From the NCBI GenBank assembly GCA_022616235.1, contig JAKEFC010000281.1, positions 1 through 39,485 of the forward strand: a stretch of 39,485 nucleotides of DNA, in the 5' to 3' direction. The DNA is from Planctomycetota bacterium. GTDB taxonomy: Bacteria > Planctomycetota > UBA8108 > UBA1146 > JAKEFC01. Each line of letters opens with the position of its first letter. Position 1 is the first letter of the stretch. The notes beneath the pieces were generated by a model. That model searched no databases. It was not told the origin of the DNA and worked only from the letters and a program-made list of their open reading frames with translations. The translations under genes and the position numbers were made by a program. Below, in pieces: positions 8,307 to 27,388 of this stretch.

Positions 8307-8481
8307 AGAGCCTGTCCAAGAACTTCTCCTGGCTTCGGTCGGCTGCGAGGCGCGCCCACGGCGTCGAGCCTCATCGCCGTGTTTCTCCATCAATACGACT
8401 CTTCGGCTCTCCTTGCGCGCGCGCCTCTCGCTCGACCCCGAATACTCCAGGGGATGGCCAACGGAGAAGTTATTTGGCTCT
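8307..8481. repeat. Dispersed palindromic intergenic element, copy A
   Basis: About 175 bp between the convergent gdh and mlaD genes. The ends are inverted repeats: AGAGCC plus CCAAGAACTTCTCC on the left match GGAGAAGTTATTTGG plus GGCTCT on the right, with a 9-bp perfect core (AACTTCTCC/GGAGAAGTT). The interior shares ordered blocks with copies B and C: CTGGCTTCGGTCGGCTGCGA, GCGTCGAGCC, TTTCTCCATCAATACGA, CTCTCCTTGCG. GTCGAGC and GCTCGAC form a second, internal inverted pair. The right arm touches the mlaD stop codon. In this position it could act as a bidirectional terminator. It could also be a MITE-like relic. Confidence 0.7.
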
Positions 8482-9602
8482 TAGAACGCCTGAAACAGCG
8501 CCCGCAGGAAAGCGTTGATCGGCGCCTGCTCGCGCGCATCCTCGGTGACGTCTCTCAGCAACGTCACGGTGCGAACGGCTTCGAGGTAGAGTTCGTCGGA
8601 ATTCAGAAGGCGGCCGATGGTGTTGTCGGCGCGGTTCAAGCGCGCCGAGGCGTCGCGGAAGTTCGCCAGGATCTCTTGCACGTCGGCGGCCCATTCGGGG
8701 TCGCTCAGCATGTGGGCGATGATCCCTTCGCCCTCGCGCAGATCGCGCAGCGTAATCCTGATTTCCTCCAGCACGTTCTCGAAGGATTCCGCAAGCTCGG
8801 GGTCGCCGATCAGCTTGCCGAGCAGCCCCTTGCGTTCTCGGATGTCCGCCGCGATCCCTTGCAGCGCCTCCGTCAATCCCCGGTCGTGAATGAGCGCGGC
8901 GAGCGGCCCCTCGCCGGAGTTGATCGCCCCCGTGATGTCGTCGATATTCGAGACGATCGTCGGGATTCGCTCGAGCGCCGCGGCGACATCCTTGTCGTTG
9001 AGGAGCTTGCCGAGCGGTCCATCTCCCTCATCGATCTTGCTGGCGATGCTGTCCACGCGATCGACGATCTCGCGAAAGCGCTGCGCGATCTCCTCATCTT
9101 GGATCCAGGCGCCGAGGAGCCCTTGTCCCGCTTCGAGGTCCTCGATCACGTTCGCGAGGCGCTGCACGATATCGCGCAGGTCGCTCCGGTTCTCCTGCAT
9201 GATCTCCCCGGCCACGGCGAGGAAGTCCATGCTCCCGGTGCCGCGCAGCGTCTGGGGGTCGATCGCCGGTCCGGCGCCGGGGCGATAGTCGATGTAACTC
9301 CCGCCGAGCGCGCTCGCCGATCTTACTTGCAACGATGCCCCTTCTTGCGGCCGCAGGTCGGGCTCCAGCTCCATCGTCACCATGACTCCGCCGGGGACCA
9401 GCTTCGTCGCACGAACCTCTCCGACGCTCTTGCCGCGTACGCGGACCGGATCTCCTTCTTGCAATCCCGAGATCTCGTCGAAGCGGACTTCGATCGTGTC
9501 GGTCGTCGCGAACAGGCGGATGTTGCCCGCCAACATCGTCATGGCGCCGAGCAAGACGAGAGCGAGCAAGAACAACAGGCCGACCAGAAAATCCCGAGTC
9601 AT
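8481..9602 (-). CDS. mlaD: MlaD-type MCE-domain protein with tandem helical repeats
   Basis: 373 residues. An N-terminal membrane anchor (about residues 5-25) is followed by a single MCE domain (about 35-110; VRFDEISGLQEGDPVRVRGKSVGEV is the family signature region) and a long helical C-terminus. MCE proteins form hexameric rings that carry lipid across the periplasm for an Mla-type ABC transporter. The helical part holds six tandem units of 27-36 residues with the pattern G-x-G-x-L-G-x-L-x-x-D-x-E-L, with glycines near residues 161, 196, 232, 259, 293 and 327. They could form an extended tube or a scaffold. The start overlaps the mlaF stop by ATGA, so the two are translationally coupled. The stop is TAA at the edge of repeat A. 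Confidence 0.9.
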   Translation of the reverse strand: MTRDFLVGLLFLLALVLLGAMTMLAGNIRLFATTDTIEVRFDEISGLQEGDPVRVRGKSVGEVRATKLVPGGVMVTMELEPDLRPQEGASLQVRSASALGGSYIDYRPGAGPAIDPQTLRGTGSMDFLAVAGEIMQENRSDLRDIVQRLANVIEDLEAGQGLLGAWIQDEEIAQRFREIVDRVDSIASKIDEGDGPLGKLLNDKDVAAALERIPTIVSNIDDITGAINSGEGPLAALIHDRGLTEALQGIAADIRERKGLLGKLIGDPELAESFENVLEEIRITLRDLREGEGIIAHMLSDPEWAADVQEILANFRDASARLNRADNTIGRLLNSDELYLEAVRTVTLLRDVTEDAREQAPINAFLRALFQAF

Positions 9603-10426
9603 CGCGACTCCTTGCCGTGGCTGATTACCGTGGTGGTTTGCCCGCCTTTGTGCGGCGCAAGGAGAGCCGGAGCGCCGGCCGCGGTGCGGGACAGCGGCCC
9701 ATCGATCTCGCCGCGCGTGAACTGCACGACGGCGGGATCGTCGCTCTCCTGGAATTCGCGCGCGGTGCCGATCGCATGAATACGCCCTTCGTGCAGCAGC
9801 GCCAGGCGATCGCCGATCACGTAGGCCGCGTTCATGTCGTGCGTGACGACTACCTGGGTCACGTGCAATTTCGACTTCAACGTGTTGATCAGCCGATTGA
9901 TGATGTTCGACGAAATCGGGTCGAGCCCGGAAGTGGGCTCATCGTAGAGCACGACTTCCGGCCGCGTCGCGAGGGCGCGCGCGAGCCCCGCGCGCTTTCG
10001 CATGCCCCCGGAGATCTCGCTGGGGTACTTGTCGATCGCATCGAGCAGTTCCACTTCGCCCAGACACTCCGCCACGCGCTCCTGGATCTCGCGCTTCGGG
10101 AGCAACCGAGTCTCTTGGAGGGGCAGCGCGACGTTTTGGCCGACCGTGATCCAATTCAGGAGCGCGCCGTCCTGGAAGAGATAGCCGATGCGGCGGCGGC
10201 ACTCCCTCAGCTCTGCGGGGCTCGCTTTTCCGAGATCGACGCCGAAGACCCGGACCGTGCCGCGGTCCGCGGTCATCAAGCCGACGATGTGGCGCAGCGT
10301 TACGCTCTTGCCGGTACCGCTCCTACCGAGGATCACGAGCGTTTCGCGCGGCAACACTTCGAGATCGAGGCCGGCGAGGACGTCCTTGCGATCCAGTCGT
10401 TTGTAGACGCCTTGCATCTCGATCAT
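9599..10426 (-). CDS. mlaF: MlaF-type lipid-transport ABC ATPase
   Basis: 275 residues, the normal size for MlaF. Walker A is GRSGTGKS (about residues 35-42), the ABC signature is EISGGMRKRAGLARAL, Walker B is VVLYDEPTSGLDP, and the H-loop is VVTHDMNAA. ISGGMRKR with a following T-S-G-L-D-P is typical of the MlaF/MKL family. It powers lipid movement through MlaE and the MlaD ring at the inner membrane. The ORF track extends it upstream to 10861, but that part only shadows mlaE in another frame. The ATG at 10426 overlaps the mlaE stop by ATGA. It ends with an ATGA overlap into mlaD. Confidence 0.93.
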   Translation of the reverse strand: MIEMQGVYKRLDRKDVLAGLDLEVLPRETLVILGRSGTGKSVTLRHIVGLMTADRGTVRVFGVDLGKASPAELRECRRRIGYLFQDGALLNWITVGQNVALPLQETRLLPKREIQERVAECLGEVELLDAIDKYPSEISGGMRKRAGLARALATRPEVVLYDEPTSGLDPISSNIINRLINTLKSKLHVTQVVVTHDMNAAYVIGDRLALLHEGRIHAIGTAREFQESDDPAVVQFTRGEIDGPLSRTAAGAPALLAPHKGGQTTTVISHGKESR

Positions 10427-11217
10427 TTGTAGAAAGCCCACGTGATGTAGTAGCCGAGGATCAAGAACAAGAGAAACGACACGACCACGGAGCGCCGCGT
10501 GGAACGCCCGACGCCGGTCGCGCCGCCGCGAGTCTGGAGGCCTTGCGTGCAGCCGACGATCGCGATCGTCGCCCCGAACACGACGCTCTTCAAGAGGCCC
10601 GTGAAGATGTCCTTCAATTTGAGAAGCTCGATCGCATCGTTCTTGAACGACTCCCAGGACACCGCGTATTGGAAGTAGCTGATCGCCGCTCCCCCGAGAA
10701 TGCCAATGACGCCGGAAAACACCGTCATCATGGGACCGAGCACGAGCAGGGCGATGAGGCGCGGCAGCACGAGAAAACGGACGGGAGAAATCGACATGAT
10801 CTCCAGGGCGTCGATCTCCTCGGTGACTCTCATCGTGCCGATCTCGGCCGCGATGCTGCAACCGATGCTCGCGGAGAGTATGACGGCCGTCATGAGCGGG
10901 CCCATTTCGCGTACCATCGACACCGCCACGATGCGGCCCACGAGGTGCTCCTGGCCGAGGCTCTCCACGGTGATGAGGAAGTTGAGCGCGAGGATGAGGC
11001 CGGTGAAGAGCGACACCACGAGGACCACGACCAAGGATGCGAACGAGTAGGTATAGAGCAAATTCAATATGTCGCGGATCCGCCTGGGCGACGCGGCGTG
11101 GGGGAGCGCTGCCCCGGCGCTCGCGAGGAGTTGGAGTCCGAAGCCGGAAGATTGCGCCGATTGGACCAAAAATGCGCCGAGAGACTCGACGGAGCGCTGG
11201 AGTCTAGCCAACGGCAT
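10423..11217 (-). CDS. mlaE: MlaE-type lipid-transport permease
   Basis: 264 residues with five or six hydrophobic helices and the MlaE family core: REMGPLMTAVILSASIGCSIAAEIGTMRVTEEIDAL-type sequence (about residues 115-155), then the LVLPRLIALLVLGP helix and a C-terminal GCTQGLQTRGGATGVGRSTRRSVV loop. It is the inner-membrane subunit that MlaF and MlaD bind. It starts 35 nt after the stop of the aromatic-proline repeat lipoprotein, which puts it in the same transcript. It is coupled to mlaF by ATGA. An N-terminal extension of about 45 residues precedes the permease core. Confidence 0.93.
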   Translation of the reverse strand: MPLARLQRSVESLGAFLVQSAQSSGFGLQLLASAGAALPHAASPRRIRDILNLLYTYSFASLVVVLVVSLFTGLILALNFLITVESLGQEHLVGRIVAVSMVREMGPLMTAVILSASIGCSIAAEIGTMRVTEEIDALEIMSISPVRFLVLPRLIALLVLGPMMTVFSGVIGILGGAAISYFQYAVSWESFKNDAIELLKLKDIFTGLLKSVVFGATIAIVGCTQGLQTRGGATGVGRSTRRSVVVSFLLFLILGYYITWAFYK

Positions 11218-11252: not shown

Positions 11253-12584
11253 TCAGAACGGAATGTAAAGGATCCGCCATTGCGTGTCATCGGGTTCCGT
11301 CGTTCGCTCCAAGAATCCCCCAAGTATCGAAACGCGATGCCTGGCTCCGAGGCGTTCGCTGCGCACGAGGCCCCACATTAGGTCCCAAGTGCGATCGCCG
11401 TCCGCTCCGCTCCGCTCGTAGCGGTAGACGCGCCAGAGCCGCGCGTAGAGCGGTTCGAAATAGTCCGCGTCGTCGAACGGCAGGAGGTCCAACGCGTTGA
11501 CCTCGAGCCGATTTCGATCGGCGCGTCGTATCGAACAGAAGGGCCAGAATCGCGTCCGGCTCTCGTAGTTATCGGCCGCGAGGTCCGTGCGGCTGTGGTG
11601 CCAGTAGATCGGCAGGACCCAAAGGCTCTCGTTGATGCGGCTGCCGGCGGTCTGTCGCTCGTATTGCTGGACCGGCCACAACAGAAACTGTCGAAACGAA
11701 GTGGCCGTCCTGCGCCGGCCGTAGAGCGGCCACACGTCGAATTGCTCGTAGTCCTTTCCCCAGCCGAAGGTCCACGGAAACAGGGATACCTTCGTGGTGT
11801 TCTCTGGGCGATTGCGCGTGTGGACGAAGAGGGGCCACAAGATGGAGCGCTCCGTGATGTTCTTGCCGTCGATCGAGCCGTAGATCGGGAAGAACCAGCG
11901 CGTGCGCTTCGGATTCTCCGTATCGAGCAGCTCATCCTGGGCGTGAAAGAACGGCCACAGATAGAAGCGGCGATCGTATATGGGTTCCCCGCGTCCGTTC
12001 CTGGCGCGATAGCGGCCATAGAACGGAAAGAACCGAATCCCATCGTGCGTTAGTCCGCTGACGACGTTGAAGATCGGCCACAAGACGTGCTGCGAGCTGC
12101 GCGCATCGTTGACGACGCGCGCGTAGAGCGGAAACAGCGCGACGTCGATCCTCCGCTGCGCGAAGATGCCCCGCAGCGAGCCCGCTACGGGAAACAGCAT
12201 GAAGTAGTCACCCTCGCGCGGATCGGTTCCCCAGTACACGAGCGGGAATAGGAAAGAATCGACGTCGCGGTCGCCGCTCTCGTGCAGATAGCTCCACCGG
12301 TGCCAAACCGGAAGCAGCCAGGCGCGGGATTGCTCGGCATCGCTGGTGGAGCGGAAGATCGGCCAGAGCACACCGACGTCGCGGCGCCCGCCGGTGGTAC
12401 GCGCCAGCACGAACGGGCGGAGGAGCAGCGTCGAGTCGCCCTGCGCCGTCACCGTGTGCTCGAGGAGCGGCTCGACCGCGAAGCGGCCGCCGGACGGTCC
12501 GATGCACGAAGTTGCGGCGAGGCACGCAGCGGCGGCCGCCAGCGAGCGAATGAGCGCGCGCGCACGCCGGGTTGGCAACGTCAT
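11253..12584 (-). CDS. Lipoprotein of aromatic-proline strand repeats
   Basis: 443 residues. A lipoprotein signal (hydrophobic stretch ending in LAATSC, lipid cysteine near residue 27) is followed by about 400 residues of one periodic pattern. Short strands such as VLWPIF, LFPLY, FFPFYGR, YLWPFF, WFFPIYGS, ILWPLF, DVWPLYGR, LLWPVQ, VLPIYWHH and RFWPF recur every 20-30 residues, separated by charged turns. The chain ends in the aromatic YIPF. The alternation of aromatic strands and polar loops suggests an amphipathic beta sheet, possibly barrel- or groove-shaped, at the inner face of the outer membrane. I do not recognise a named family. The start at 12584 overlaps the stop of the PQQ-propeller gene by ATGA; the ORF-track start at 12680 would run deep into that gene. 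The link to MlaEFD suggests a role in lipid handling, which is inference. Confidence 0.75.
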   Translation of the reverse strand: MTLPTRRARALIRSLAAAAACLAATSCIGPSGGRFAVEPLLEHTVTAQGDSTLLLRPFVLARTTGGRRDVGVLWPIFRSTSDAEQSRAWLLPVWHRWSYLHESGDRDVDSFLFPLVYWGTDPREGDYFMLFPVAGSLRGIFAQRRIDVALFPLYARVVNDARSSQHVLWPIFNVVSGLTHDGIRFFPFYGRYRARNGRGEPIYDRRFYLWPFFHAQDELLDTENPKRTRWFFPIYGSIDGKNITERSILWPLFVHTRNRPENTTKVSLFPWTFGWGKDYEQFDVWPLYGRRRTATSFRQFLLWPVQQYERQTAGSRINESLWVLPIYWHHSRTDLAADNYESRTRFWPFCSIRRADRNRLEVNALDLLPFDDADYFEPLYARLWRVYRYERSGADGDRTWDLMWGLVRSERLGARHRVSILGGFLERTTEPDDTQWRILYIPF

Positions 12585-15500
12585 CGTCCGAGCCGCAGCC
12601 TCGGAAAGTACTCCGGGATGAACAGATCCCAAATGTCCCGAGTCTCGATCCGCAGGTGCTGCCCGGCGGAAATGCTGCAATACTTCGCGGCGCCGCGCCC
12701 CGTATCGTCATCGGTGAGGAGGATGTTCATTCGAAAAGTCATCCCGGGGCGCGGCAGGGTCTCGTTCAAATCCGCGCGCGCCTCGCGAAAGCTGTCCCAG
12801 AAGATCGTCACTTCGTAGATGATTCCGCTGCCGTCGCCCTTTCGCTGCACTTGATATCTGCCCGGCGGGCTCGGCTCCTCTTCCTCCTCCGCCGGAGGAG
12901 GATTCTCGCCATCCGCTCCCGGCGCGGGAGCGGGCGGCGGCTTCGGCACCGTGAGCGCTAGAGTGAGGAGTTGGTCGTTGCTGTCCGGCTGCTGTCCGCC
13001 GTCATCCTGAAAGTCGAATGCGAGGAGAAAGCAGTCGCCGGTCCAACGGCGTGCGTTCTTGTCGTAGGGAACGACGGTGTCATCCGTCACGTCGATCGCG
13101 ATGTGAAACCCTTCGTCGCTCCACGCCGTCAGAACCAGCGCCGAGAGATCGTGGCGGCCGTGCCACATCGCGTCGTCGCCGCCGTGCCCCTGCATGATGT
13201 GGAAGTACCTGGGGGCATGCACCGGAATCGCGAACGCGGCGTTCCAAAGCTCGTCCAATCCGCCGTCGATCTCCGGAATCCGCGTGAGGTGCGGCACCTG
13301 CCAGCGCAGCGGCGCCTCTTCTCCGCGTTGCTGCGCGAGCCCCGCGAGGCGCGCGTAAAGCGATTGCCACTCGCCGCGAGGCAGCGCGGGGCTCTCCACG
13401 AGCGTCTCGAGGATGCGGCACGCGCGCTCGACTCCGCCCGCGCGAAACGCGGGCACGACCGCGGCCGGCGGCACCACCTGCAAGTCGGGAGGATCGAGGA
13501 GGACGACGCCGTCGAGCGCGTGCCAGTTGCCCTCCAACAGCTCGAACGAAGACAGCGGGCGAAGTCCCATGCCGCCGCGCATGGTGAATACGACGAGAGT
13601 GTCCGCGATGAATCCGGCGTAGTAGAGACGCCGTCTACCAGCCAGGAACTCCTTCGCCGCCCGGAACATCGCGGATCGTTGGATCTCGCCGGATTCGCGC
13701 TCGATCACCGTCAGGTCGCAACGATAACTGTCGCGCACGAGGATCCAATCGCGGTAGAAATCGATCTGTGCATGGTCGGGCCCGCGGCTCAAGCGCTTCG
13801 AGTACTTCGACTTCAGCTCGAAGGGAGCGTGGTCGTCGGGAATCTCGGCTTCGAGCAGGCTCGGACTCACTTGCAAGCAGGTCAACTTGCGTTCCGCGAA
13901 TTCGCCCTCGAGGAGGTGAAGCTGGCCCCCGTAGTACTCGATCGCGTGGAGGCGCGGCTCGGCGCTCCGATCGGGGCCGGGGGGCAGCGTCTTCGTCCAG
14001 AGGATGCGCCCATCGCGAGGAGCGATCCCGAGCAGCGCCGGCTGCTGTGCCTGCCGATCTAGCTCCGCGATCCAGAAAGGAACGCCGGGTAGGATGTGCA
14101 CGCGGACGAGGGGAGCCGCGAACTCCTGCTCCCATTGCACGACGCCGCTGTTCACGTCGACGACCCGAAGCATGCCGTCGCCGGAGTCCGCGACGATGGG
14201 GAGCGCGGCGAGGTTGGCGCCGGCGAACCACGGCTCGTGAACGAAGCCGCCCGACTTGCGCTCGAGAGCGAGGGTGCGCACGCGCTGTCCCGTCGCGAGA
14301 TTGCGGATCTCCGCGGCCGCCGGGTCGCGTGTCGCGAAGAGTACCCTGCCGCCCGCGATCGCGGGGTCGCCGGCGAGGTCGCCGGCAAGCGTCTCCTGCC
14401 AGAGGAGCGCCGCATCGTCGATGCGGTAGGCGCACAAGCGCCGGTCCGCGCTCAGCGCAACGAGCACTCCGTCGGCGGCGACGGCGCGCTCGATGTATAC
14501 GATGTGTTTCTCCGAGAACTCCGGGCTCGGTGGCAGCTCGAGCCGCCAGCGAAGTGCGCCATTCGCGGGATCGACGCAGTAGAACTCCGTGCCGTCGTGC
14601 AGGACGATCGCATCGGCAGAGATCAGGAGCGGGCCGCGGAGCGCCGCGCGATCCGCAAACGCGGGGACGAACTCGTCGAGCGAACCGCCGCCCCTGCGGA
14701 ACTGGCGCGACCATAGCCGCTCTCCGGTCGCCGCGTCCCATTGCTCGAGATTGTGTCTCGCCACGATGAGGAACCGGCTCGCAAACTCCGCGGGCAGCGT
14801 CGCCGGGAACCGGTGCACTTGCAGATCGCGTTGATGGGAAAGGTCGATCGGGCTTCGCCACGCAGGCACGAGACGGCTGTCATCTTCGAGCGGCGGATCT
14901 CCGGTGGGACCTATAGGCGGAGTTTCCGCGAGCATCCTCCCGCCGCGTGCCGCGACGTTCTCCTTGCCCAGCGGAGTGCTCAGCTCGAGGGCTCCGTAGC
15001 GATCGATGAGTTCCTCGAGGATCCCCCGCGCGGCGGCGAATCGACCTTCTTCGCGATGCAATTCCGCCATGCGGAAACGGGCTTCGACGGCTTCGGGCGT
15101 GTCCGGCTCGAAGAGCGTCAGGCGCCTGAGCACGAGCAAAGACTGCCTGCGCAGGCCATCGCGATAATGGCGCGATGCCAGGTCGAGAGCGGCGCGGCGC
15201 GCCGAAGCGGTATAGGGGAATCGGAGCACGACGTCCGCGAGGCCGGATGACGTGCCGCCGAGACGAGCGCTGGCGAGGCTTGCTTGCGCACGCGCTTCCC
15301 GCTCGGTGTCTGCGGCGGGGTCCTCGGCTTGGACGGAAATCTCCGTAAGGAGCCGTCGCGCGGCCAGCTCGACCGGCACGACGAAATCGGGCAGCACTTC
15401 GACGGTAGCATCGGGAGCCGCGACGAGCGCCGTGGAAGCCATGGCGCGGGCGAGCTTGAAGTCGCCGCGCCGCGCGGCGCGCAGGGCGACATCCCACGCC

Positions 15501-17632
15501 TGCCGCGCGCGCTCCGCATTCGCGGGCAGCAATGCCAAGGCCGACTCGAACAACGCAGGCGCCGCGGCGGCGCGCGCCGCTTCGTCCTCCGTGGCCGCCA
15601 GGGCCAGGACTTGGCGCGCGAGCGCGGACTCCTCCGCGCGCTCGACGCCAGCGGGCTCCGCGCCTTCCGCGAGAGCGGCGAGCGCAGCGGCGAGCGTCTC
15701 CATGTCGCCGCGCGCGAGCGCGGCCGCGACCTGGTAGCGCAGGTGCGCGACCTTGTCAGAGCCTTCGGGAGGCGCGGCCCGCACGGCGTAGGCGATCGAT
15801 TCCGCCGCGGAGTGCGCAATGAGCAATCCTGCCGCCGTCTCGATGCCGGTGGTGGCGCCCGTGAGGTCGAGCGGGCGGAGATAGAGGCGAGCGATCGAAG
15901 TATCCAGCTCGTAGAAGCCGGCCGCGCAGGGGATGAACCAGCGGAACGGGCCCGCCTCGATCGGAGCGCCCGTGATCGGCGGTTGGCTGGCGTCTAGCGC
16001 GAACGCCGCGCCCGAGCGCGGCCGCCCGCCTTGCAACGACCACAGTTCCAAGCTGCGCGCGGATGCGAGGAGGAAAACCTCTTCATCCCTGCGGGCGGCA
16101 CGTCCCCACCACGACGCTGCGCCGCGCGGAATCGCGGCGAGCAGCGCTCCATCCGCGCGGTTCCACACGATGATCTCGTTCGAGTCCACCGGCGCCGCGA
16201 TCAGGTAGCGCGCCGTGCAGTGGAGCGCGGGCGCCTGCTGCGTCTCGTCGAAGCGAAGGGCGTCCTGGCTCGCGCCGCGCGCGAGCGCTGGATAGCTCGT
16301 CGACCAGAGGAGCGCGCCATCGGCGAAGTGATGCGCCGACAGGAATCCGCGTTGCGTGAGGAAATAGAGTTCGTCACCCCGCGCGGCGAGGGACACGCGT
16401 GCGGCGCCGAGACCGAGGTAGGTCGCGCCTTGGGCGCTCCCGGCCGGTCGATTCCAAATCGGCGCCCCGCTTTCGTCGAGCAAGAGCAGGCGCGCGACGA
16501 GCGAGCTGCGCTCCAATCGCAGAACCGCGAGCGCGATTCCCCGCGGCGTCGACAGTGGCGGCGTGACGGAGAGGATCGCGGTCTTGGCCGGGGGTGAATT
16601 CGCTGTCGCGGCCTCCTCCGGCGCGGGAGGGATCAGCTCGTGCAGCGGGAGATGCCAGCGCAACGCGCCGTTCGCGCGATCGCAGGCGATGATCCCGTCG
16701 GCGAAGGTCGCGACGACGAGCGAGCCGTGAATGACCGGCGCCGCGAGGGTGCGCGGGATCGGCGCGGGAGGATCCCAGAGGAACGGCGTCTTCCACACCT
16801 CCGTTCCGGCGTCCCCGTCGAAGCAGCTTAGCTCATCGTTTCCTTGCACGTAGAGGGAGCTGCCGGCGCCGGCGCATCGCATCTCGACGCCAAAGGGGAA
16901 CCACGGGGATGCCGCGTTGCCGCCGTACATGGAGCTGCCCCACTCGATTTGGATCGTCGGGCTGAGGGGCTGCCTGGCAAAGGGCAGATCCGCGCCGCCC
17001 GCTTGCGCGGACGGCGCCAAGCGCTGCGCGATCTCCGCCTCGTTGCCGGCGCTCGCGTCGAGATCGAGGCGATCGAGATAGGCCTCGAGGTGACCCTGCT
17101 CGAGCCAAGCGCTTTCTTGACGCTCGCGAGCGCTCGCGGCGAGGCGCGAGTCCGGAAAGTCGCGCGCGATCCGGTGGGCGATGCGCTCTGGAATGATCTG
17201 GTCCGCGTTCGCGCCCGCGGCCGGCGGCGGGGCACCGCTCTGCCGGATGCGGGCGCCCAGCTCGAAATCGATGGCAGTCACGACCTCGCGCGCGGATTCC
17301 GGAGCGAGCCCGCGCATCTCTTCCTGCAAGTAGAGCGATGGGCCGACCCAGCGATCGGGGGAGAGCGGGAACGCGCCGTCCGGCACGCCGTCGAGGAGCG
17401 CACGCGCGAGCGCGAGGACGCCATCGCGCGTCGCCGCTTCGTTGCCCGCGCGCCGCGATTCCACGATCGCCTCGGCGAGGCGCCGGATGGCTTCCGCGCG
17501 CGGCGGCGTCCAGAGGTGGTCGCCGCCCCCCTCTTGGGCTAGAGCGCCGGGGATGAGCGCGAGGAGAGCGCCGAGCAGCGCGATCACGCGCCGCATCGGG
17601 TGCCGGAGCCTGCCGCCGTTGGTCGCTCGCAT
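12581..17632 (-). CDS. Giant secreted PQQ-propeller/TPR/CBM9-like protein
   Basis: About 1,683 residues. A signal peptide (RRVIALLGALLALIPGALAQ) leads a helical region to about residue 225. A PQQ-type beta-propeller follows (about 228-640; repeats such as ELSCFDGDAGTEVWKTPF and IIACDRANGALRWHLPL). Then come TPR-like helices (about 650-930; AEARFRMAELHREEGRF region) and a second propeller (about 950-1400; LEQWDAATGERLW, EFYCVDPANGALRWRLE). The C-terminal ~200 residues (ending LFIPEYFPRLRLG) resemble a CBM9/DOMON-like sandwich, interrupted by a Pro/Glu-rich linker. The propellers match the PQQ-binding-like repeat family but lack obvious dehydrogenase residues, so a binding or scaffold role is likelier than catalysis. 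The ATG at 17632 is chosen because GGGAGGGAAGAG precedes it; the signal peptide also allows 17596. It is the first gene of the mla operon. Confidence 0.85.
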   Translation of the reverse strand: MRATNGGRLRHPMRRVIALLGALLALIPGALAQEGGGDHLWTPPRAEAIRRLAEAIVESRRAGNEAATRDGVLALARALLDGVPDGAFPLSPDRWVGPSLYLQEEMRGLAPESAREVVTAIDFELGARIRQSGAPPPAAGANADQIIPERIAHRIARDFPDSRLAASARERQESAWLEQGHLEAYLDRLDLDASAGNEAEIAQRLAPSAQAGGADLPFARQPLSPTIQIEWGSSMYGGNAASPWFPFGVEMRCAGAGSSLYVQGNDELSCFDGDAGTEVWKTPFLWDPPAPIPRTLAAPVIHGSLVVATFADGIIACDRANGALRWHLPLHELIPPAPEEAATANSPPAKTAILSVTPPLSTPRGIALAVLRLERSSLVARLLLLDESGAPIWNRPAGSAQGATYLGLGAARVSLAARGDELYFLTQRGFLSAHHFADGALLWSTSYPALARGASQDALRFDETQQAPALHCTARYLIAAPVDSNEIIVWNRADGALLAAIPRGAASWWGRAARRDEEVFLLASARSLELWSLQGGRPRSGAAFALDASQPPITGAPIEAGPFRWFIPCAAGFYELDTSIARLYLRPLDLTGATTGIETAAGLLIAHSAAESIAYAVRAAPPEGSDKVAHLRYQVAAALARGDMETLAAALAALAEGAEPAGVERAEESALARQVLALAATEDEAARAAAAPALFESALALLPANAERARQAWDVALRAARRGDFKLARAMASTALVAAPDATVEVLPDFVVPVELAARRLLTEISVQAEDPAADTEREARAQASLASARLGGTSSGLADVVLRFPYTASARRAALDLASRHYRDGLRRQSLLVLRRLTLFEPDTPEAVEARFRMAELHREEGRFAAARGILEELIDRYGALELSTPLGKENVAARGGRMLAETPPIGPTGDPPLEDDSRLVPAWRSPIDLSHQRDLQVHRFPATLPAEFASRFLIVARHNLEQWDAATGERLWSRQFRRGGGSLDEFVPAFADRAALRGPLLISADAIVLHDGTEFYCVDPANGALRWRLELPPSPEFSEKHIVYIERAVAADGVLVALSADRRLCAYRIDDAALLWQETLAGDLAGDPAIAGGRVLFATRDPAAAEIRNLATGQRVRTLALERKSGGFVHEPWFAGANLAALPIVADSGDGMLRVVDVNSGVVQWEQEFAAPLVRVHILPGVPFWIAELDRQAQQPALLGIAPRDGRILWTKTLPPGPDRSAEPRLHAIEYYGGQLHLLEGEFAERKLTCLQVSPSLLEAEIPDDHAPFELKSKYSKRLSRGPDHAQIDFYRDWILVRDSYRCDLTVIERESGEIQRSAMFRAAKEFLAGRRRLYYAGFIADTLVVFTMRGGMGLRPLSSFELLEGNWHALDGVVLLDPPDLQVVPPAAVVPAFRAGGVERACRILETLVESPALPRGEWQSLYARLAGLAQQRGEEAPLRWQVPHLTRIPEIDGGLDELWNAAFAIPVHAPRYFHIMQGHGGDDAMWHGRHDLSALVLTAWSDEGFHIAIDVTDDTVVPYDKNARRWTGDCFLLAFDFQDDGGQQPDSNDQLLTLALTVPKPPPAPAPGADGENPPPAEEEEEPSPPGRYQVQRKGDGSGIIYEVTIFWDSFREARADLNETLPRPGMTFRMNILLTDDDTGRGAAKYCSISAGQHLRIETRDIWDLFIPEYFPRLRLGR

Positions 17633-17688
17633 CGAACTCTTCCCTCCCGCGCGTTGCGCCGCGCACCGGTCGTGCGCCCGGCTCTTAG

Positions 17689-17851
17689 GAGCACGTTTCA
17701 AAATGCCGCCTGCCTTTGGCCGGCTGCGAGCGCACCATTCCGCGTCGGGCCGCCTCGCCCTATTTCTCCGTCAATACCGCCTCTGCGGCCCTCCTTGCCT
17801 GGCGCGCACTCGGCCGGCCTCGGGGCAACGGCTTCCTTCTGAAACGCGCTC
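17689..17851. repeat. Dispersed palindromic intergenic element, copy B
   Basis: About 163 bp in the 345-bp gap between the pilO-like gene and the PQQ-propeller gene. The terminal arms GAGCACGTTTCA and TGAAACGCGCTC pair at 11 of 12 positions. Their sequence differs from the arms of copy A, so pairing is kept while sequence is not. Interior blocks match copies A and C in order: CTGCCTTTGGCCGGCTGCGA, GCGTCGGGCC, TATTTCTCCGTCAATAC, CCTCCTTGC. On the - strand it would form most of the 5' leader of the PQQ-propeller transcript. The remaining gap (17882-17977) shows nothing further. Confidence 0.7.
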
Positions 17852-17977: not shown

Positions 17978-18487
17978 CTACTCGACGAAGATGTCCAGCA
18001 CGACTTCGAGCAGGCGCTGGCCAGGGCCGCGCCCAGCGGTCCAATGGATCTCCTGGATGCGGAGCGGGGCGGGAGTCACGGCGAGATAGTGGATGAACTG
18101 CACGTGCGCGGCCGGAGCGCCGCTCACCACGATGCGATGCCGCTGCCGGGGCGGCATCGCATCCGCGGGAGACGACTCTACGTTGCGAGATTCGAGCACT
18201 AATTGCAGCTCCTCGAGCCGCGCGGTAGTCCGCGAGAGAATCGCGGCAAGCTCGGCGCCGGTCGCCGGAGCCGAGGCAAAGCGCGCGAAGAGATGCTCCT
18301 TGAGCGCCGGCGCGGCTTCGAGGGTGCGAGCGGGAGGAAGCGGCCCCGCGGCCGCCGCGGTAGACGCGGGGAGGAGCGCGCGGATCGCGATCGCGAGGAG
18401 CGTGGCGAGGATTGCGGAGCCTTCGATCCATGCCCAGCGTTTCGATGGCGGAAGCAGCCGCTGCACGAGCATGACGCCGGTCGTCAT
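17978..18487 (-). CDS. PilO/GspM-like assembly protein
   Basis: 169 residues. A short cytoplasmic N-terminus and one membrane helix (about residues 20-40, IEGSAILATLLAIAIRALL) are followed by a helical linker (about 70-100) and a small alpha/beta domain ending in LLEVVLDIFVE. This is the layout of PilO and GspM, which dimerise in the periplasm and align the inner-membrane platform with the secretin. The sequence alone is too divergent for a firm family call, so the assignment leans on layout and on its place right after the PilM- and PilN-like genes. Its ATG overlaps the PilN-like stop by ATGA. Last gene of the secretion operon. Confidence 0.65.
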   Translation of the reverse strand: MTTGVMLVQRLLPPSKRWAWIEGSAILATLLAIAIRALLPASTAAAAGPLPPARTLEAAPALKEHLFARFASAPATGAELAAILSRTTARLEELQLVLESRNVESSPADAMPPRQRHRIVVSGAPAAHVQFIHYLAVTPAPLRIQEIHWTAGRGPGQRLLEVVLDIFVE

Positions 18488-19008
18488 CGCAGCACCTCGA
18501 GCTTGAGCGGCGGCACGACGTCCGCGCGCACGGTAAAGATCGGCTTGCCGCTCTTGGGGTCCCGCCGTACGGACACGGGAACCGCGTGCTTTAGCCAGGC
18601 GTAGCTTTCGAGGAACAACATGAGGTCGGGAACCGCCTGGACCTCATCGGTTTCTCCGCTGATCTCGAGTTGGTTCGTCGCGGCGCGGAAGTGCAGCGAA
18701 GTGATCGACCCGAGCGGCTCGAGAGTGGAGGGAAGCGCGGCGAAGAGCTGGTGCCAGGGCACCCAACCCTCCGCGCAGGCGAGCGCGACCGCCATCGGGT
18801 CTCCGGCGGGAATTTCGAAGTCGCCGCGAACGGCGAGCGGGGGCGGTGCCGCATAGGCGACCTGTGCCGGCGCCGCGCCGCGCGCGAGCAGGAACCCGAC
18901 TCCGCCGATCGCGAGCATGAGCGCGGAGGTGGCGATCACCGAAGGGAGGGCTTCAAGGCGTTCGACTCCGGCAGGGGCGGCGGGCAGCAAGTTGATCGTC
19001 TTCGTCAT
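18484..19008 (-). CDS. PilN/GspL-C-like assembly protein
   Basis: 174 residues. It begins with MTKTINLLPAAP; the I-N-L-L-P motif is the PilN signature for docking into PilM. One membrane helix (about residues 23-43) follows, then a periplasmic ferredoxin-like domain (LGSITSLHFRAATNQLEISGE and the LMLFLESY helix), as in PilN and the C-terminal half of GspL. It starts 9 nt after the PilM-like stop and overlaps the PilO-like start. Together these three should form the inner-membrane alignment complex. Confidence 0.78.
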   Translation of the reverse strand: MTKTINLLPAAPAGVERLEALPSVIATSALMLAIGGVGFLLARGAAPAQVAYAAPPPLAVRGDFEIPAGDPMAVALACAEGWVPWHQLFAALPSTLEPLGSITSLHFRAATNQLEISGETDEVQAVPDLMLFLESYAWLKHAVPVSVRRDPKSGKPIFTVRADVVPPLKLEVLR

Positions 19009-19017
19009 CGCTTCGCC

Positions 19018-19926
19018 TCAGTTGCCATGCGCGAGCAGCGAGCCGAACGGAAGGAACCAAGCGCCGCTCGCGGCCATCGATTCCGGCACCCCCGCCGGCG
19101 GCGGCGCCGCCGCGAGCACGTCGGTTTGGCAGGCGCGCGCTGCCTGCGCCAACCAGTCGCGATCCACGCTTCCCATGCCGCAGAGTCCGTCGATGGCGAG
19201 GAATGGGTGGCGGTCCTCGCACGCGAGGAGCGTCTCGCGAAGGTTGCGGATCCCTTCTTCGCCGTGCAGGGGGAGGGGATCGCCATCGCGCGGAATGCGC
19301 ACCGAGAGATTGCGGAGCGCAAGGGGCCGGCCTCGAGCGAACACGGCGGCCGCCGCGCTCCCCGCATCCGAGTAGACGCCCGCGAAGGAGCGCTCGCGGC
19401 GGTCGCCGAGCTTCGCAAAGTGACAGAACGCGCGAATCGCCGCGGAGAATGCCGGTTCGAGGCCGCGGAGCGGATGGGGGAGGCGCTGCGTCCATTCCTG
19501 CCAATGGTTCACCGCGGAGCGTCGGACGGCGATGAGCAGGCCCAAATGCGCGGCGCTCGCGGACATTTCGGTCGCGGGCGCGAGAATCTCGAAGTCGTAG
19601 ACGGGGTCGAGATCGCCGACGTGGAACATCTTCTCGGCTTCCCAGCGGGTCCCTTGCGCGAGATCGGCATCGGGAAGTGCAGGGAGCGTCGCGATCGCGC
19701 CGCGGACGGCGAGCGGTGCGACCACGGCCCACCGTACTCTCTTGTCGCTCAAGAGTTGGCGAATGCCCTCGGGGGGCGGGGGGAATACGCCCCCTTCGAG
19801 CGTGATCGTGCCGCCGGCGACGAGCGCCGGCTCCGCCGCCGGACCCTCGGCGATGAGCCAGTGGCATTCTCCCGGCACGAGCGCGATTGCGCCGCGGCGG
19901 TCGCGGCGAGCCCAATTCCACTTCAT
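19018..19926 (-). CDS. PilM/GspL-N-like cytoplasmic assembly protein
   Basis: 302 residues, no signal peptide and no membrane segment. By order (secretin, this gene, PilN-like, PilO-like) it sits where PilM or the cytoplasmic half of GspL would be. Visible features include VRWAVVAPLAVRGAIATLPALP, VYDFEILAP and LGLLIAVRRSAVNHWQEW, consistent with the actin-like fold of PilM/GspL that recruits the ATPase and binds the PilN N-terminus. Sequence similarity to the family is weak, so context carries much of the call. The start at 19926 overlaps the secretin stop by ATGA. The ORF track's 930-residue version is a readthrough of an antisense-like frame across the secretin gene. Confidence 0.65.
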   Translation of the reverse strand: MKWNWARRDRRGAIALVPGECHWLIAEGPAAEPALVAGGTITLEGGVFPPPPEGIRQLLSDKRVRWAVVAPLAVRGAIATLPALPDADLAQGTRWEAEKMFHVGDLDPVYDFEILAPATEMSASAAHLGLLIAVRRSAVNHWQEWTQRLPHPLRGLEPAFSAAIRAFCHFAKLGDRRERSFAGVYSDAGSAAAAVFARGRPLALRNLSVRIPRDGDPLPLHGEEGIRNLRETLLACEDRHPFLAIDGLCGMGSVDRDWLAQAARACQTDVLAAAPPPAGVPESMAASGAWFLPFGSLLAHGN

Positions 19927-21905
19927 GGCGTGAGCAGCTCCTCGAAGCGGACTCGGAGCGCGCGGAGCGCGTCCGAGCGGCGGCGATCCACATCCATCGC
20001 GCGCTCCGCTTCCCCGCGCTCGCGCACGATGTGCGGGGTCACGAAGATGATCAGCTCGGTCTTCTCCTCGACGGACTCGCGATGGCGGAAGAGCCAGCGG
20101 AGCAGCGGCACGCTGCCGAGGACCGGCACCTTGCGCACTTTTTCGCTCGTCGTCTGCTCGATGAGGCCTCCGATCACCGCGGTCTCGCCGGAGCGCAGGA
20201 GCACTTGCGTGTCCGCCTCCCGCGTGCTGATCACGGGAAATCGATTGTCCACCAAGTCCAAGAGCGCGCTCACGGCGGGGTGGATCACCATATGGACCCT
20301 GTCTCCCTCGGCAACCGTGGGGATTACGATCAGTTGGATCCCGATGTCTTCGTAGTAGGCAAGGGAGACGGTACGCACCGCCGTCTGCGGGTCGATCGTC
20401 TCCGTGGTGACCGGAAACTTCTGGCCGATGAGTATGCGCGCTTCGACGCTGTCGAGCGTCGTTATGTTCGGCTTCGAGACGATCTCCGCGTTCTCCGACT
20501 GGTCGATGAGTCGCAGCACCGCCGTGAGCTGATCCGCGGAGAGCGACCCGAACGTGAATCCGCTGGTGGTCGTGGGAAACGGCGGGAAGTAGCGGCCGCC
20601 GGCGGGGTCCCAAGGCAGCGTGTGCGGCCGCGTCGCTCCGGCGATCGACAGCACGGCGTTCCAATCGATGCCATGGCTGCGCTCGTCGTCCTTCGTGACC
20701 TGGACGATCACGACTTCCACTTCGATCTGGCGCGGCATCACGTCGAGAGCTTGAATGCGCTCGGCGATCGCCGTGACGATCTCCGGTCGATCCGTCACGC
20801 TGATCACCCGCGACCGCACGGACTCTCCCCGGTCGCGGGTGTCGTCTTGGGCGCGCTGCTCCGTGATCTTGCTGCCGAACTGGAATCCGCCATGCGGCGC
20901 CGGCGCGAAGCAAGTGATCTTCCCGGCGCCGCTCAGCATTTTCTCCAGATAGCGCTTCATGTCCCAACCGTCGACGAAGCGAAGGGAGAATTCCCTCGTG
21001 ACCAGCTCCTCCTGCGCCGACTTGCGGCTCGTGATCACGATCACGCCGTTCTCCTCGCGATAGGCGCAGTCCACGTCGCGCAGGATCAGCGCGAGCGCCT
21101 GCGGCCACGCGACCTTTTCGAGGCGCGCGTTGAGCAGCGCGGCGTGGGTGCCGCTCACGTAGACGTTGAGTCCGAGGGTCGCGTTGAGCAGCATCGCGAG
21201 GTCGTCGAGGGGATAGGCCTGCAGGCGCACGTTCACCGTGCCGTCGTCGTTCTTGGTGATTTCGCCGATCGCATCGCGGGGGGGGACATCGATGGTCGGA
21301 ATCAGATCGCGGATCACGTCGATGATCTGCGGCGAGTCGATGATCGAAAGGGTCCGTCCGACGTCGCCGCTCCCCGCCAGCGCTTCGATATGGCCGTTCT
21401 TGGAGAGGAGCGGCGCGAGGATCTGCTTCACCGCCACCGGGTCGCTGTAGCGAAGGCGTACGATGAGCGGAAAGCGCTCCGCGGCGAGGTCGTCGCCGCG
21501 GGGAAGGCGCGTCACGCGCAGGATGCCGTTCTCCTCCACCATCGCGTAGTTGTGCGCTTTGAGAATGCTCTGCAGCGCTTGGCGCCACTCGAGATTGGTG
21601 ATCTTGACGGTCACTTTCTCGGACAACGCCTCGCCGGTGACGAGGTTCACGTTGCGCTCGCGCAATATGAATTGGATGACGCTGCGCAGGTCGATGTTGT
21701 CGAAGTTCAAGGTGACGCGGTCGGCGGTGCTGGCCGCCGGCGGCGTCGCGGCGGGAGGCGGGGCGACCTGCGCCCCGCTTGGGTCCGCGGCGGCCACGAA
21801 GAACGCGCACGCCGCGAAGACAGGCACGATGCGCCGGCGCGCGGCTCGTTCCCTCCGCTGGGGGAGGCGACGGAGCAATGGGTCGTGCGGCGGCCGGAGG
21901 GGCAT
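19923..21905 (-). CDS. gspD: Secretin, outer-membrane channel (GspD/PilQ family)
   Basis: 660 residues. A long basic N-terminus with a signal peptide (IVPVFAACAFFVAAADPSGAQ) leads an STN/N0 domain (LNFDNIDLRSVIQFILRERN, about residues 66-130) and an N1-like module (VRLRYSDPVAVKQILAPLL). A second STN-like unit (VNVRLQAYPLDDLAMLLNATL) and another N-module come next, then the secretin core. The core signature is clear: VPVLGSVPLLRWLF near the C-terminus, followed by KTELIIFVTPHIV. It forms the multimeric outer-membrane gate for the pseudopilus. The start has AGGGAG upstream. It is preceded by a strong hairpin and coupled by ATGA to the PilM-like gene. Whether it is closer to GspD or PilQ cannot be settled by eye. 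Confidence 0.93.
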   Translation of the reverse strand: MPLRPPHDPLLRRLPQRRERAARRRIVPVFAACAFFVAAADPSGAQVAPPPAATPPAASTADRVTLNFDNIDLRSVIQFILRERNVNLVTGEALSEKVTVKITNLEWRQALQSILKAHNYAMVEENGILRVTRLPRGDDLAAERFPLIVRLRYSDPVAVKQILAPLLSKNGHIEALAGSGDVGRTLSIIDSPQIIDVIRDLIPTIDVPPRDAIGEITKNDDGTVNVRLQAYPLDDLAMLLNATLGLNVYVSGTHAALLNARLEKVAWPQALALILRDVDCAYREENGVIVITSRKSAQEELVTREFSLRFVDGWDMKRYLEKMLSGAGKITCFAPAPHGGFQFGSKITEQRAQDDTRDRGESVRSRVISVTDRPEIVTAIAERIQALDVMPRQIEVEVVIVQVTKDDERSHGIDWNAVLSIAGATRPHTLPWDPAGGRYFPPFPTTTSGFTFGSLSADQLTAVLRLIDQSENAEIVSKPNITTLDSVEARILIGQKFPVTTETIDPQTAVRTVSLAYYEDIGIQLIVIPTVAEGDRVHMVIHPAVSALLDLVDNRFPVISTREADTQVLLRSGETAVIGGLIEQTTSEKVRKVPVLGSVPLLRWLFRHRESVEEKTELIIFVTPHIVRERGEAERAMDVDRRRSDALRALRVRFEELLTP

Positions 21906-21926
21906 CGGCGCTCCCTAACGTTCAGG

Positions 21927-21948
21927 TCCCGCTCGCAGCCGAGCGGGA
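21927..21948. promoter_or_regulatory. Hairpin in the secretin leader
   Basis: TCCCGCTCG-CAGC-CGAGCGGGA is a perfect 9-bp stem with a 4-nt loop, in the 101-bp gap between the PilP-like stop and the secretin start. It lies 22 nt upstream of the secretin ATG on the transcript. There is no U-run, so it may be an mRNA-stabilising or attenuating structure rather than a full terminator. Confidence 0.45.
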
Positions 21949-22006
21949 GAAAGCCCCCTCCGATGAACCGTCCTTCATTCCGCGGCGCGAAAGCGGCGCG
22001 CGATCG

Positions 22007-22636
22007 CTACCGATCGCCGCCGCCCGCAGCCGGCGGCAAGACCTGACGTTGCTCCCCGTATGGCTCGAACGGGAGCACGTATTCCTTGCCGTTCATTTCG
22101 ATGCAAACCTCGGCCTCGCGCACCGCGACCAGCCGCAACTTGGTGTCGAGCTTCTCTCCCTCGAAGATCACTTTCCCATCGAGGAGCGCGCCCCGCACGG
22201 CACCAGAATAATAGATGCCCCCCAGAGCGACGGGGCGGGGAGGCAGCTTGCGGGCACCGGTGCGCGCTCTTGCGCGCGCGGGCTCGGGAGTGCCGCCGCT
22301 CTGCAGCGCGAACGGATCGCCCTCGATCGCGACCTTGGGCAATTCCGTCGACATGGCGAGGACCCGCTCCAGCGCCTCCTTCTTGTAGCGGTATGCCCTC
22401 GGAGGCAATCCGCCCGGCGCCCCCGCTGGCGCGCCCGGAGCCGGCGCCGCCGCGGCTCCCGCAGCCTGCGTAGAGGTCTCCGTGCCGTTGGATCCGGCGC
22501 CAGGCGCTCCGGCGGCGGCCGCCGCTCCCCCCATGACCAGCCCGGCCGAATCGTTCCCGCGCATCGCCCAGGACAACAATCCGGCGCCGACGACCGCGAC
22601 GGTCACGAGCAGCAGGCGCTTCTCGCGCCGATTCAT
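22007..22636 (-). CDS. PilP/GspC-like periplasmic connector
   Basis: 209 residues. An N-terminal membrane helix (KRLLLVTVAVVGAGLLSWAM) is followed by a low-complexity Ala/Pro/Gly linker (about residues 35-80) and a C-terminal beta domain of about 60-70 residues (VALGGIYYSGAVRGALLDGKVIFEGEKL, ending EVCIEMNGKEYVLPFEPY). A G-G-I-x-x-S-x-x-x-x-A-L-L-[ND]-G-K pattern is the hallmark of the PilP/GspC HR domain that contacts the secretin. The start at 22636 overlaps the lipoprotein stop by ATGA; the ORF-track start at 23161 lies in the wrong gene. It stands directly before the secretin, as expected for a partner. Confidence 0.75.
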   Translation of the reverse strand: MNRREKRLLLVTVAVVGAGLLSWAMRGNDSAGLVMGGAAAAAGAPGAGSNGTETSTQAAGAAAAPAPGAPAGAPGGLPPRAYRYKKEALERVLAMSTELPKVAIEGDPFALQSGGTPEPARARARTGARKLPPRPVALGGIYYSGAVRGALLDGKVIFEGEKLDTKLRLVAVREAEVCIEMNGKEYVLPFEPYGEQRQVLPPAAGGGDR

Positions 22637-23190
22637 GGCGCACGCTCCGGCGGCAGCGCTTCGACCTCCGCCGCGAGCGCAGCGATCGCGGCGCGCCCGC
22701 TTGGATCCAATCCCGGATCGGCGAGCGCAGCAGCGAGCATCTCTTCCCCATCCGCATCGGCGCCGGTCAGGAACAAGAGCCAAGCCATCTCGATGCGCGC
22801 TCGCGAATCGAGCTTCGCTCCGCGCATTTGCATCTCGCGATAGAGCGCAAGCGCGTGGCGTGCGCCGTCGAGCAACCGCCGCCGCGCGCTGCGCTGTCGC
22901 TCGTTGCCAGTGGCGCCGCGATCCCGCTCCGAAGCGGCCAGCTCGAGCCACTCCGCGGCCTGCCAGCGCGCGAGCCGCGCGGTCGCGCGGGCGTAGTCTT
23001 GGAGCGCACCGGCGTCGAAGTCGCTCGCGGCGAGCCGCGCGCGAGCATGATCGGCATCGGCGGCGAGTTCCGGGGGCAGAGCCTCCCACGCCGCGTAGTA
23101 GTGCGGCAGCGTCGCGGCGCGCGGCGCCCCGCCGGCGCAGCCGAAGGCAGCGAGCGCGCAAGCGAGCAATGTGCCGCGGAGCGGGGTCAT
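22633..23190 (-). CDS. Small helical lipoprotein of the secretion operon
   Basis: 185 residues. A short signal sequence ending in AAFGC looks like a loose lipobox (lipid cysteine near residue 18). The rest is almost wholly alpha-helical and Ala/Arg/Leu-rich, with TPR-like character (YARATARLARWQAAEWLELA, ARIEMAWLLFLTGADADGEEML). It could be a pilotin-like or TPR-type assembly factor for the secretin, an idea based on its place between the kinase and the PilP-like gene. Both ends overlap neighbours by ATGA. No family recognised. Confidence 0.6.
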   Translation of the reverse strand: MTPLRGTLLACALAAFGCAGGAPRAATLPHYYAAWEALPPELAADADHARARLAASDFDAGALQDYARATARLARWQAAEWLELAASERDRGATGNERQRSARRRLLDGARHALALYREMQMRGAKLDSRARIEMAWLLFLTGADADGEEMLAAALADPGLDPSGRAAIAALAAEVEALPPERAP

Positions 23191-24491: not shown

Positions 24492-25468
24492 CGCGCCACT
24501 TTGTCCTTGAGCAGCGCGAGCGGCGGCGCGATCTGCGTCGCGAACACTCTGAGCAGCATGGAGAGGTCGCGCTGGGCGGCGGTCGCATCGCCGGGCACGA
24601 CGAGGAATCCATGTACTTCGCTGCCCGCGCGGAGCGGCACGAGAGTGAACGGTCCGGAGGACTCTTCTCCTCCGCCCAGCTTCAGCGCGAGGCGCGGCAG
24701 CGCGGGCGCCTGGGCGGGCTGCACGATCGCGACTTCCCCCAGCAGCGCGAGATCTACGCCAAGCTCCTCCGCAGTGAATTCGCAGTCGGACGGCACTTCG
24801 GCCGCATAGCCCGGAGCGCGGACCAGGCGCCAGCCGGCGCCGTTGCGCGCGATCAAGAGCCCGCGTGGGACCTCGAGCTGCAGCCGCAGCATGTCGGCGA
24901 CGAGGTCGAAGAGCGGCTCGACCGCTTCCACCTCGCCGATCATGCGTCCGGTCTCGCAGAGGAGCTCCAGCTCCGCGACGCGGCGCCGCAGTTGGCCGTT
25001 CGCGTTCTTCAGGTCGCAGTTGATCTCTTGGAGATCGCGCGCCAGCGCCCGGTTGGCGAACAAGAGCCGCCTCCGTTCGAGGGCCTTCCGCACGATCTTG
25101 AGCAGGTCCTCCTCGAAATTGAGGATCGGCTTCGTGACGTAGTCGTACGCCCCGAGACGCATCGCCTCGACTGCGGTCTGCAGCGTCCCGTTGCCGCTCG
25201 CCATCAGGACTTCGACGTCCGGATAGCGCCTCTTGATCTCGCGCAGAAGCTCGACGCCGTTCATCCCCGGCATCACGATGTCCAGGATCGCAATGTCGAT
25301 CTGCTCGCGTTCCAGGATTACCAGCGCCTCGGTTGCATTCGCGGCAACGAGGACTTGGAACCCCTCCGTGGCGAAGTAGAGCTCGATCGCCTCGCGAATG
25401 AACGACTCATCGTCCACCACGAGGAGCTTCTCGCTCTTCGCGCTCGTCCTACGGACCGCCAAGCTCAT
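24488..25468 (-). CDS. Response regulator: REC domain, coiled coil and GAF-like domain
   Basis: 326 residues. The receiver domain (about 14-130) has the acidic pair VVDDE at 19-20, phospho-acceptor Asp 63 in AILDIVMPGMNG, a Ser in place of the usual Thr in LMASGNG, and Lys in YVTKP. A coiled coil (about 135-180) follows, then a GAF-like domain (about 180-315). There is no DNA-binding or enzymatic output, so signalling is probably by protein contact. The ORF track's longer version starts in unrelated frame; ATG 25468 has GAGAA-like sequence upstream. Its likely partner is the FHA-histidine kinase at the head of the same operon. Confidence 0.85.
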   Translation of the reverse strand: MSLAVRRTSAKSEKLLVVDDESFIREAIELYFATEGFQVLVAANATEALVILEREQIDIAILDIVMPGMNGVELLREIKRRYPDVEVLMASGNGTLQTAVEAMRLGAYDYVTKPILNFEEDLLKIVRKALERRRLLFANRALARDLQEINCDLKNANGQLRRRVAELELLCETGRMIGEVEAVEPLFDLVADMLRLQLEVPRGLLIARNGAGWRLVRAPGYAAEVPSDCEFTAEELGVDLALLGEVAIVQPAQAPALPRLALKLGGGEESSGPFTLVPLRAGSEVHGFLVVPGDATAAQRDLSMLLRVFATQIAPPLALLKDKVAR

Positions 25469-25517
25469 CGCCGAATTCTCGTTCCCACGGCGCTCCGCAG
25501 GGGAGCGCCCGGACTCG

Positions 25518-27175: not shown

Positions 27176-27233
27176 CCGATGGCTCTTCGATAGGGAATGA
27201 CGCACCGCGGCCAACGAGCGCGCGGCGCGACGG

Positions 27234-27350: not shown

Positions 27351-27388
27351 GGGGGTGAGCGTTGCATGGCTGGGCACGGAGCGGCGAG

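Follow-up and report, generated by a model that had tools for sequence, protein, structure and literature searches.

A repeat lipoprotein encoded with MlaEFD in Planctomycetota, a candidate outer-membrane partner for the C-terminal tail of long MlaD proteins

The MlaEFD phospholipid transporter is connected to the outer membrane in different ways in the systems described so far. In the six-part Mla system, MlaA and MlaC supply the outer-membrane and periplasmic half of MlaEFD. MlaABC is mainly proteobacterial. In most diderms MlaEFD comes with a long MlaD, which possibly spans the envelope; in the Veillonella type this long MlaD carries a C-terminal barrel, and the MlaDs of the PVC group are without such an outer-membrane barrel (PMC10665443). 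Outside Mla, the MCE protein PqiB is anchored at the outer membrane by PqiC, a lipoprotein of that membrane which accepts the PqiB C-terminus (PMC10897342). Brucella has a chimeric Mla-Pqi system, Mpc (PMC12436622). Published phylogenomics left a gap for the Planctomycetes, which have MlaEFD, for the most part without MlaA/MlaC, are without the MlaD barrel, and whose reach to the outer membrane was left open (PMC10665443).

The window analysed here is a stretch of 39,485 nt from a Planctomycetota bacterium (GCA_022616235.1, contig JAKEFC010000281.1, positions 1 to 39,485). It encodes on the minus strand, at 11253..12584, an aromatic-Pro hairpin-repeat lipoprotein of 443 aa, here called ARO, which was identified by translation, motif count and homologues in the phylum. 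The open reading frame runs from an ATG at 12584 to a stop at 11253-11255, and its GC content by codon position is of the coding type. All other genes of the cluster lie on the same strand. After a gap of 35 nt from the ARO stop follow the permease gene mlaE (10423..11217; PF02405, E=3.7e-67), the ATPase gene mlaF (9599..10426; PF00005, E=1.9e-28) and mlaD (8481..9602; PF02470, E=4.9e-14), which encodes a long-type protein of 373 aa with its MCE domain at residues 34-109. The mlaE/mlaF and mlaF/mlaD junctions are ATGA overlaps; inspection of the mlaF start showed that a longer frame reaching 10861 is a GC-rich overlap and that the real start is the ATG at 10426. Directly upstream of ARO, a giant protein of 1706 aa with matches to TPR and to the BamB-like PQQ beta-propeller in Pfam (12581..17701; PF13360, E=6.5e-30) is encoded by a gene whose stop overlaps the ARO start by 4 nt (ATGA). 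A convergent NAD-glutamate dehydrogenase gene on the plus strand lies 3' of the mla cluster. Upstream of the mla cluster, 17978-30776 (-) holds a type IV pilus/type II secretion-like cluster (PilN-like, secretin, T2SSF, T2SSE) that also includes genes for a Ser/Thr kinase, a response regulator and an FHA-histidine kinase.

Pfam, NCBIfam and PDB sequence searches showed no known domain in the window ARO and, two chance-level single-member matches apart, no credible one in 28 of its relatives. Neither the window protein nor the relatives matched MlaA (PF04333) or MlaC (PF05494) in Pfam, so ARO was rejected as a member of these families, and membership of the PqiC family was likewise rejected for want of a Pfam, PDB sequence or fold match. 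The initial annotation had recognised no named domain and proposed a new family, to be checked by profile and Foldseek searches; both returned nothing known, and the proposal is upheld. Homologues were found in 37 of 59 relatives searched. In the systematic search, which covered Planctomycetota, profile A1 matched 115 of 246 genomes, 105 of them at full-scale scores, and the remaining ten matches were weak and mostly to larger proteins with the same repeat. A peptide pattern taken from the window protein alone recovered no named homologues, and a pattern from the family alignment recovered 17 loci among named records, mostly labelled Planctomycetota. Plasmid records gave no ARO match, and the MlaD matches there were matches to the MCE domain alone. 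Two records labelled 'Bacillota' and 'Dehalococcoidia' (L069, L075) carry an ARO that is 70-100% identical to that of Planctomycetota MAGs or of the same contig, and their labels are probably wrong.

Profiles made for this analysis were used to scan the gene neighbourhoods in 118 stretches. The gene next downstream on the same strand was mlaE for 102 of the 111 full ARO genes with enough downstream sequence; two of these testable loci had the order mlaE-mlaF-aro-mlaD, and seven had no mla gene nearby. MlaE, MlaF and MlaD, which stand together in the window, keep the same order round ARO at other loci, and a compact aro-mlaE-mlaF-mlaD unit with ARO first was found in many lineages. The link to mla genes, first proposed from the window with a neighbour scan as its check, thus holds at 104 of the phylum's 111 testable loci, and ARO also tracks a particular MlaD tail in a comparison across 246 genomes, as described below. 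Since nearly every genome of the phylum has MlaE (243 of 246), ARO marks a subset of these systems; about half of the sampled Planctomycetota have MlaE with neither the tail nor ARO. ARO is very probably a working part of this Mla system.

The giant PQQ propeller showed a different distribution. The initial annotation had placed ARO as coupled between this protein and MlaEFD, which is correct for the window (ATGA overlap on one side, 35 nt to mlaE on the other) and does not extend to a general coupling with the propeller, which was found at loci of the window's class only and is absent from most ARO loci that keep mlaE. The propeller was therefore rejected as ARO's functional partner, not having been found outside the window's class. 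The translational coupling of ARO to a BamB-like PQQ/TPR protein in that class would suit a role in another envelope pathway, such as outer-membrane protein assembly, with ARO merely sharing the mla operon. We consider this very unlikely, as mlaE is kept at most ARO loci where the propeller is absent, and as the co-occurrence of ARO with the MlaD tail holds even where the two genes are unlinked.

The MlaDs encoded with ARO are of one kind. The 88 that were measured are without exception long, at 302-474 aa with a median of 382, and nearly all of them end at the very C-terminus in the consensus ED-x-RE-x-x-P-[IV]-x-x-F-x-x-x-LF-x-x-F. In the window this tail is EDAREQAPINAFLRALFQAF (8484..8543, minus strand), which the tail alignment and the co-occurrence with ARO mark as a predicted docking peptide for ARO. 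A match to the tail profile was obtained for 87 of 95 uncut ARO-linked MlaDs; the eight untailed ones comprise six second copies in tandem arrays and two from genus g7 (G017, G019); a different contig of G017 encodes a tailed MlaD. Among loci that lack ARO, 20 were inspected, and the tail was absent from all 14 MlaDs there. Six loci (L049, L101, L116, L118, L121, L132) have a second MlaD gene without the tail directly downstream of the tailed one, and these second MlaDs could perhaps form hetero-oligomeric MCE tubes. The NCBIfam model NF047463 (Leptospira Mce protein) aligns to residues 303-373 of the window MlaD, up to the end of the model; judged from this alignment, the tail, and so perhaps an ARO-like partner, may be present in Leptospira.

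The 36-residue tail profile was run against the same 246 genomes as the ARO search. Both ARO and tail were found in 103 genomes, ARO only in two (G114, G198), the tail only in two (G048, G105) and neither in 139. The contigs of G048 and G105 stop at mlaE, and that of G114 stops soon after mlaE; with three of the four discordant genomes at contig ends, one real exception is left. The Fisher p value of the association is 1e-64, which treats related genomes as independent and is not corrected for the tree. This leaves room for the reading that the correlation reflects common ancestry and operon hitchhiking without functional dependence. Little credence can be given to it, because six families (f24, f27, f35, f47, f54, f70) contain both states and ARO and tail switch together in all six, and because both traits are still present where ARO and the tailed MlaD lie on different contigs; in the genomes of f31, and in several more, ARO is unlinked and a tailed MlaD is found elsewhere. 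The co-occurrence shows functional linkage between ARO and the tail, and not contact.

MlaC was found in 15 and MlaA in 21 of 149 genomes, and both were absent from the window's genome and from the nearest ARO genomes examined. The inspected MlaC/MlaA operons of the phylum have a short MlaD and no ARO, and in genomes with both ARO and MlaC the two are on different contigs or far apart. Operons of a classical kind, with a long MlaD and no ARO, exist too. As a separate observation, the MlaA domain occurs in frames of about 640-775 aa (L186:3-1913 (-), G022, G046, G071, G078, G097, G109, G126, G130); in the large frame that was inspected an alpha/beta-hydrolase-like region lies behind the MlaA domain, a possible MlaA-lipase fusion. 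Two genomes with such large frames (G020, G022) belong to the window's class and are without ARO.

The N-terminus of ARO has the features of a lipoprotein, namely a signal peptide (12504..12584, minus strand) with the lipobox SLAAAAACLAATS/C27, the codon of the lipidated Cys27 being 12504-12506 by sequence and homologue alignment. The lipobox Cys is kept in 27 of 28 aligned homologues, the single one without it being L057, in line with the earlier description of the protein as lipidated. Asp directly follows the Cys in none of the 27. In E. coli, lipoproteins without Asp after the lipidated Cys go to the outer membrane. LolA was looked for as an indicator of sorting to the outer membrane, and no match came from the window's genome or from most of its order. 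We infer that the outer membrane is the likely location of ARO. A different placement, in the inner membrane or the periplasm, would have ARO bind the tail and scaffold or stabilise the MlaD hexamer, with no contact to the outer membrane; the failure to detect LolA fits this placement, and the linkage between tail and ARO does not fix the membrane side. It is nevertheless improbable: in a long MlaD the tail is at the end remote from the inner membrane, the absence of Asp after the lipidated Cys indicates the outer membrane if the E. coli rule is applied, and the turn edge of ARO is hydrophobic.

This edge is formed by the repeats. Mature ARO contains 17 [FWYLIVM]-P-[FWYLIVM] motifs, which take up 17 of its 26 prolines; in 20,000 residue shuffles, 3.6 +/- 1.8 motifs were expected, the maximum was 11 and 17 was never reached. 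The spacing is mostly 16-24 residues. The initial annotation, which gave about 14 aromatic-Pro strands every 20-30 residues, was right on the recurrence and off on the count and the spacing. The repeat region (11256..12472, minus strand) comprises about 18 hairpins, one per roughly 17-24 residues, with [WF]P[FL]-type turns, according to alignment A1, the offset profile, the AlphaFold secondary structure and the covariation axes. It includes a conserved C-terminal segment, SILGGFLERTTEPDDTQWRILYIPF (11256..11330, minus strand; alignments A1, A5 and A6). The aligned prolines are residues 39, 57, 75, 92, 114, 132, 152, 170, 187, 211, 233, 251, 270, 286, 304, 325, 348 and 369. Across 28 homologues with 23-36% identity to the window ARO, 13 columns are invariant, and 11 of these are motif prolines. 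The profile averaged over 114 homologues has an aromatic residue at -4, Leu at -2, Trp/Phe at -1, Pro at 0, Phe/Leu at +1, Phe/Tyr at +2 and Tyr/Trp at +4, with charged or polar residues beyond +/-5 from the motif Pro and with Pro-Pro spacing peaks at 17-18 and 20-22.

The same repeat occurs in larger proteins. One at L165:3600-7325 (+) has 28 aromatic-Pro motifs, and frames of 1000-1700 aa with the repeat were seen in six genomes (G018:C107, G021:C106, G029:C318, G039:C76, G047:C168, G050:C50); no Pfam match was obtained for these larger proteins where tested. The aromatic-Pro repeat is modular and has been expanded in paralogues.

AlphaFold2 models built on 16-17 sequences predicted an almost all-beta protein for the window ARO (mean pLDDT 77) and for the mature protein of a close relative (pLDDT 86, pTM 0.62), with about 40 strands of about 6 residues and a break at each W-P-F. 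Mean-field covariation was computed on 114 ARO sequences (effective number 79) and averaged over the motifs; the top-ranked raw DCA pairs were uninformative, being dominated by conserved columns, and the averaged symmetry axes were used instead. Covariation was symmetric around the motif prolines (axis 0 to -0.5 residue) and around the inter-motif loops (axis +/-8.5 to 10.5), and fell under background at mid-strand axes (0.57 versus -0.19, p = 4e-9). Pairing across the loop is seen between adjacent repeats (p about 1e-5); in the averaged covariation of the 114 sequences the far half-strands do not pair clearly. Because the axes lie at prolines and loops and neighbours pair, each repeat is read as a hairpin with a [WF]P[FL] turn, in an up-and-down order; ARO is a meander in which about 36-40 strands follow one another and the Trp/Phe-Pro-Phe/Leu turns all fall on the same edge. 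The proline, earlier placed at the centre of a strand, sits instead in the hairpin turn between two short strands, as both the covariation and the AlphaFold secondary structure indicate. Long strands kinked at the proline into a taco-like groove were ruled out by the same hairpin pattern and by the lack of clear pairing between far half-strands. The strands of about 6 residues and the Pro-turn hairpins also argue against a closed transmembrane barrel of long amphipathic strands.

Foldseek searches with the window protein and the relative's model gave no PDB fold match. OspA-type single-layer meanders, WD and PQQ propellers and Rhs proteins are antiparallel or meandering structures that resembled ARO locally in these comparisons, but they share no common global fold with it (TM-scores <=0.25), and a beta-propeller identity was rejected on this value. 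The extended all-beta meander, in which one strand face is aromatic (-4, -2, +2 and +4 from the Pro) and the outer positions are charged, could also be that of a lipid-carrying element, a groove or shuttle of the MlaC or bridge-like kind whose aromatic sheet passes acyl chains between MlaD and the outer membrane, and the functions of MlaA and MlaC are otherwise missing. This is rather doubtful, as ARO has no Pfam similarity to MlaC, AsmA/TamB-type or LptA-like families and no fold match to a lipid-transfer protein, and its lipidation speaks against a free shuttle.

On balance, and by analogy with PqiC, we favour the reading that ARO is a lipoprotein of the outer membrane which accepts the long MlaD by its C-terminus and takes the place of MlaA/MlaC, PqiC-like in role and unrelated in descent. 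The analogy draws on the lipidation of ARO, its place beside the MlaEFD genes, its tie to the distal end of MlaD and its hydrophobic edge. Since it precedes MlaEFD in much of the phylum and goes with one MlaD tail, ARO probably supplies the outer-membrane dock that was missing from a lipid transport system with none of the known outer-membrane parts. Of the first proposal that it could be an outer-membrane partner of the lipid transporter, the partnership stands on the mla linkage and the tail tracking, and the outer-membrane location keeps the strength given above. Against a dock stand the homologue without the lipobox Cys, the seven ARO genes not near mla, and the half or so of the phylum sample that manages without ARO.

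The mechanism proposed for this dock is as follows. ARO would be a dedicated fourth component of the Planctomycetota-type MlaEFD phospholipid transporter (aro-mlaE-mlaF-mlaD). It would be exported and lipidated, with the inner leaflet of the outer membrane as its most likely anchoring site. The Trp/Phe-Pro-Phe/Leu turns, lined up on one edge of its long beta-meander, would rest against that membrane or reach into it. The long helical part of the MlaD hexamer would cross the periplasm from the inner-membrane MlaEF complex, and the conserved MlaD tail would dock on ARO, joining the lipid-conducting tube to the outer membrane. That the tail docks on ARO is itself judged likely; we infer the physical docking, the membrane contact of the turns and the cargo and direction of lipid transport from the features described. 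ARO would thereby do the job of MlaA/MlaC, or of the barrel on other long MlaDs, while being homologous to none of them.

PqiC is the closest functional analogue, being, like the proposed ARO, a dedicated lipoprotein of an MCE transporter that receives the MCE C-terminus at the outer membrane. PqiC is an octameric toroid of about 20 kDa subunits, whereas ARO, much larger at 443 aa, is an all-beta hairpin-repeat meander without a Pfam match and, unlike PqiC, pairs with MlaD, MlaE and MlaF. MlaA and MlaC are comparable in the half of the system that they supply and differ in sequence family and in the short-MlaD operons that house them in this phylum. The Veillonella-type MlaD (PMC10665443) shares the absence of MlaA/MlaC and the long MlaD bridging to the outer membrane, but the MlaD described here has a short conserved tail at its end, and a separate lipoprotein would serve as the outer-membrane part. 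A more specific version is put forward tentatively, in which ARO has a new fold and acts as a new type of MCE adaptor at the outer membrane. Its hairpin-repeat sheet, either open or closed into a ring, would insert the turn edge in that membrane and capture the MlaD tail.

The analysis describes a previously unclassified repeat family with a distinctive hairpin-turn architecture, and it sorts the Mla operons of one phylum three ways, into those with ARO and a long tailed MlaD, those with MlaC/MlaA and a short MlaD, and those with a long untailed MlaD alone. If the adaptor reading is true, MlaA/MlaC and the MlaD barrel would be joined by a third way of linking MlaEFD to the outer membrane. The gap left in the Planctomycetes now has a named candidate, ARO, and a predicted partner peptide on MlaD.
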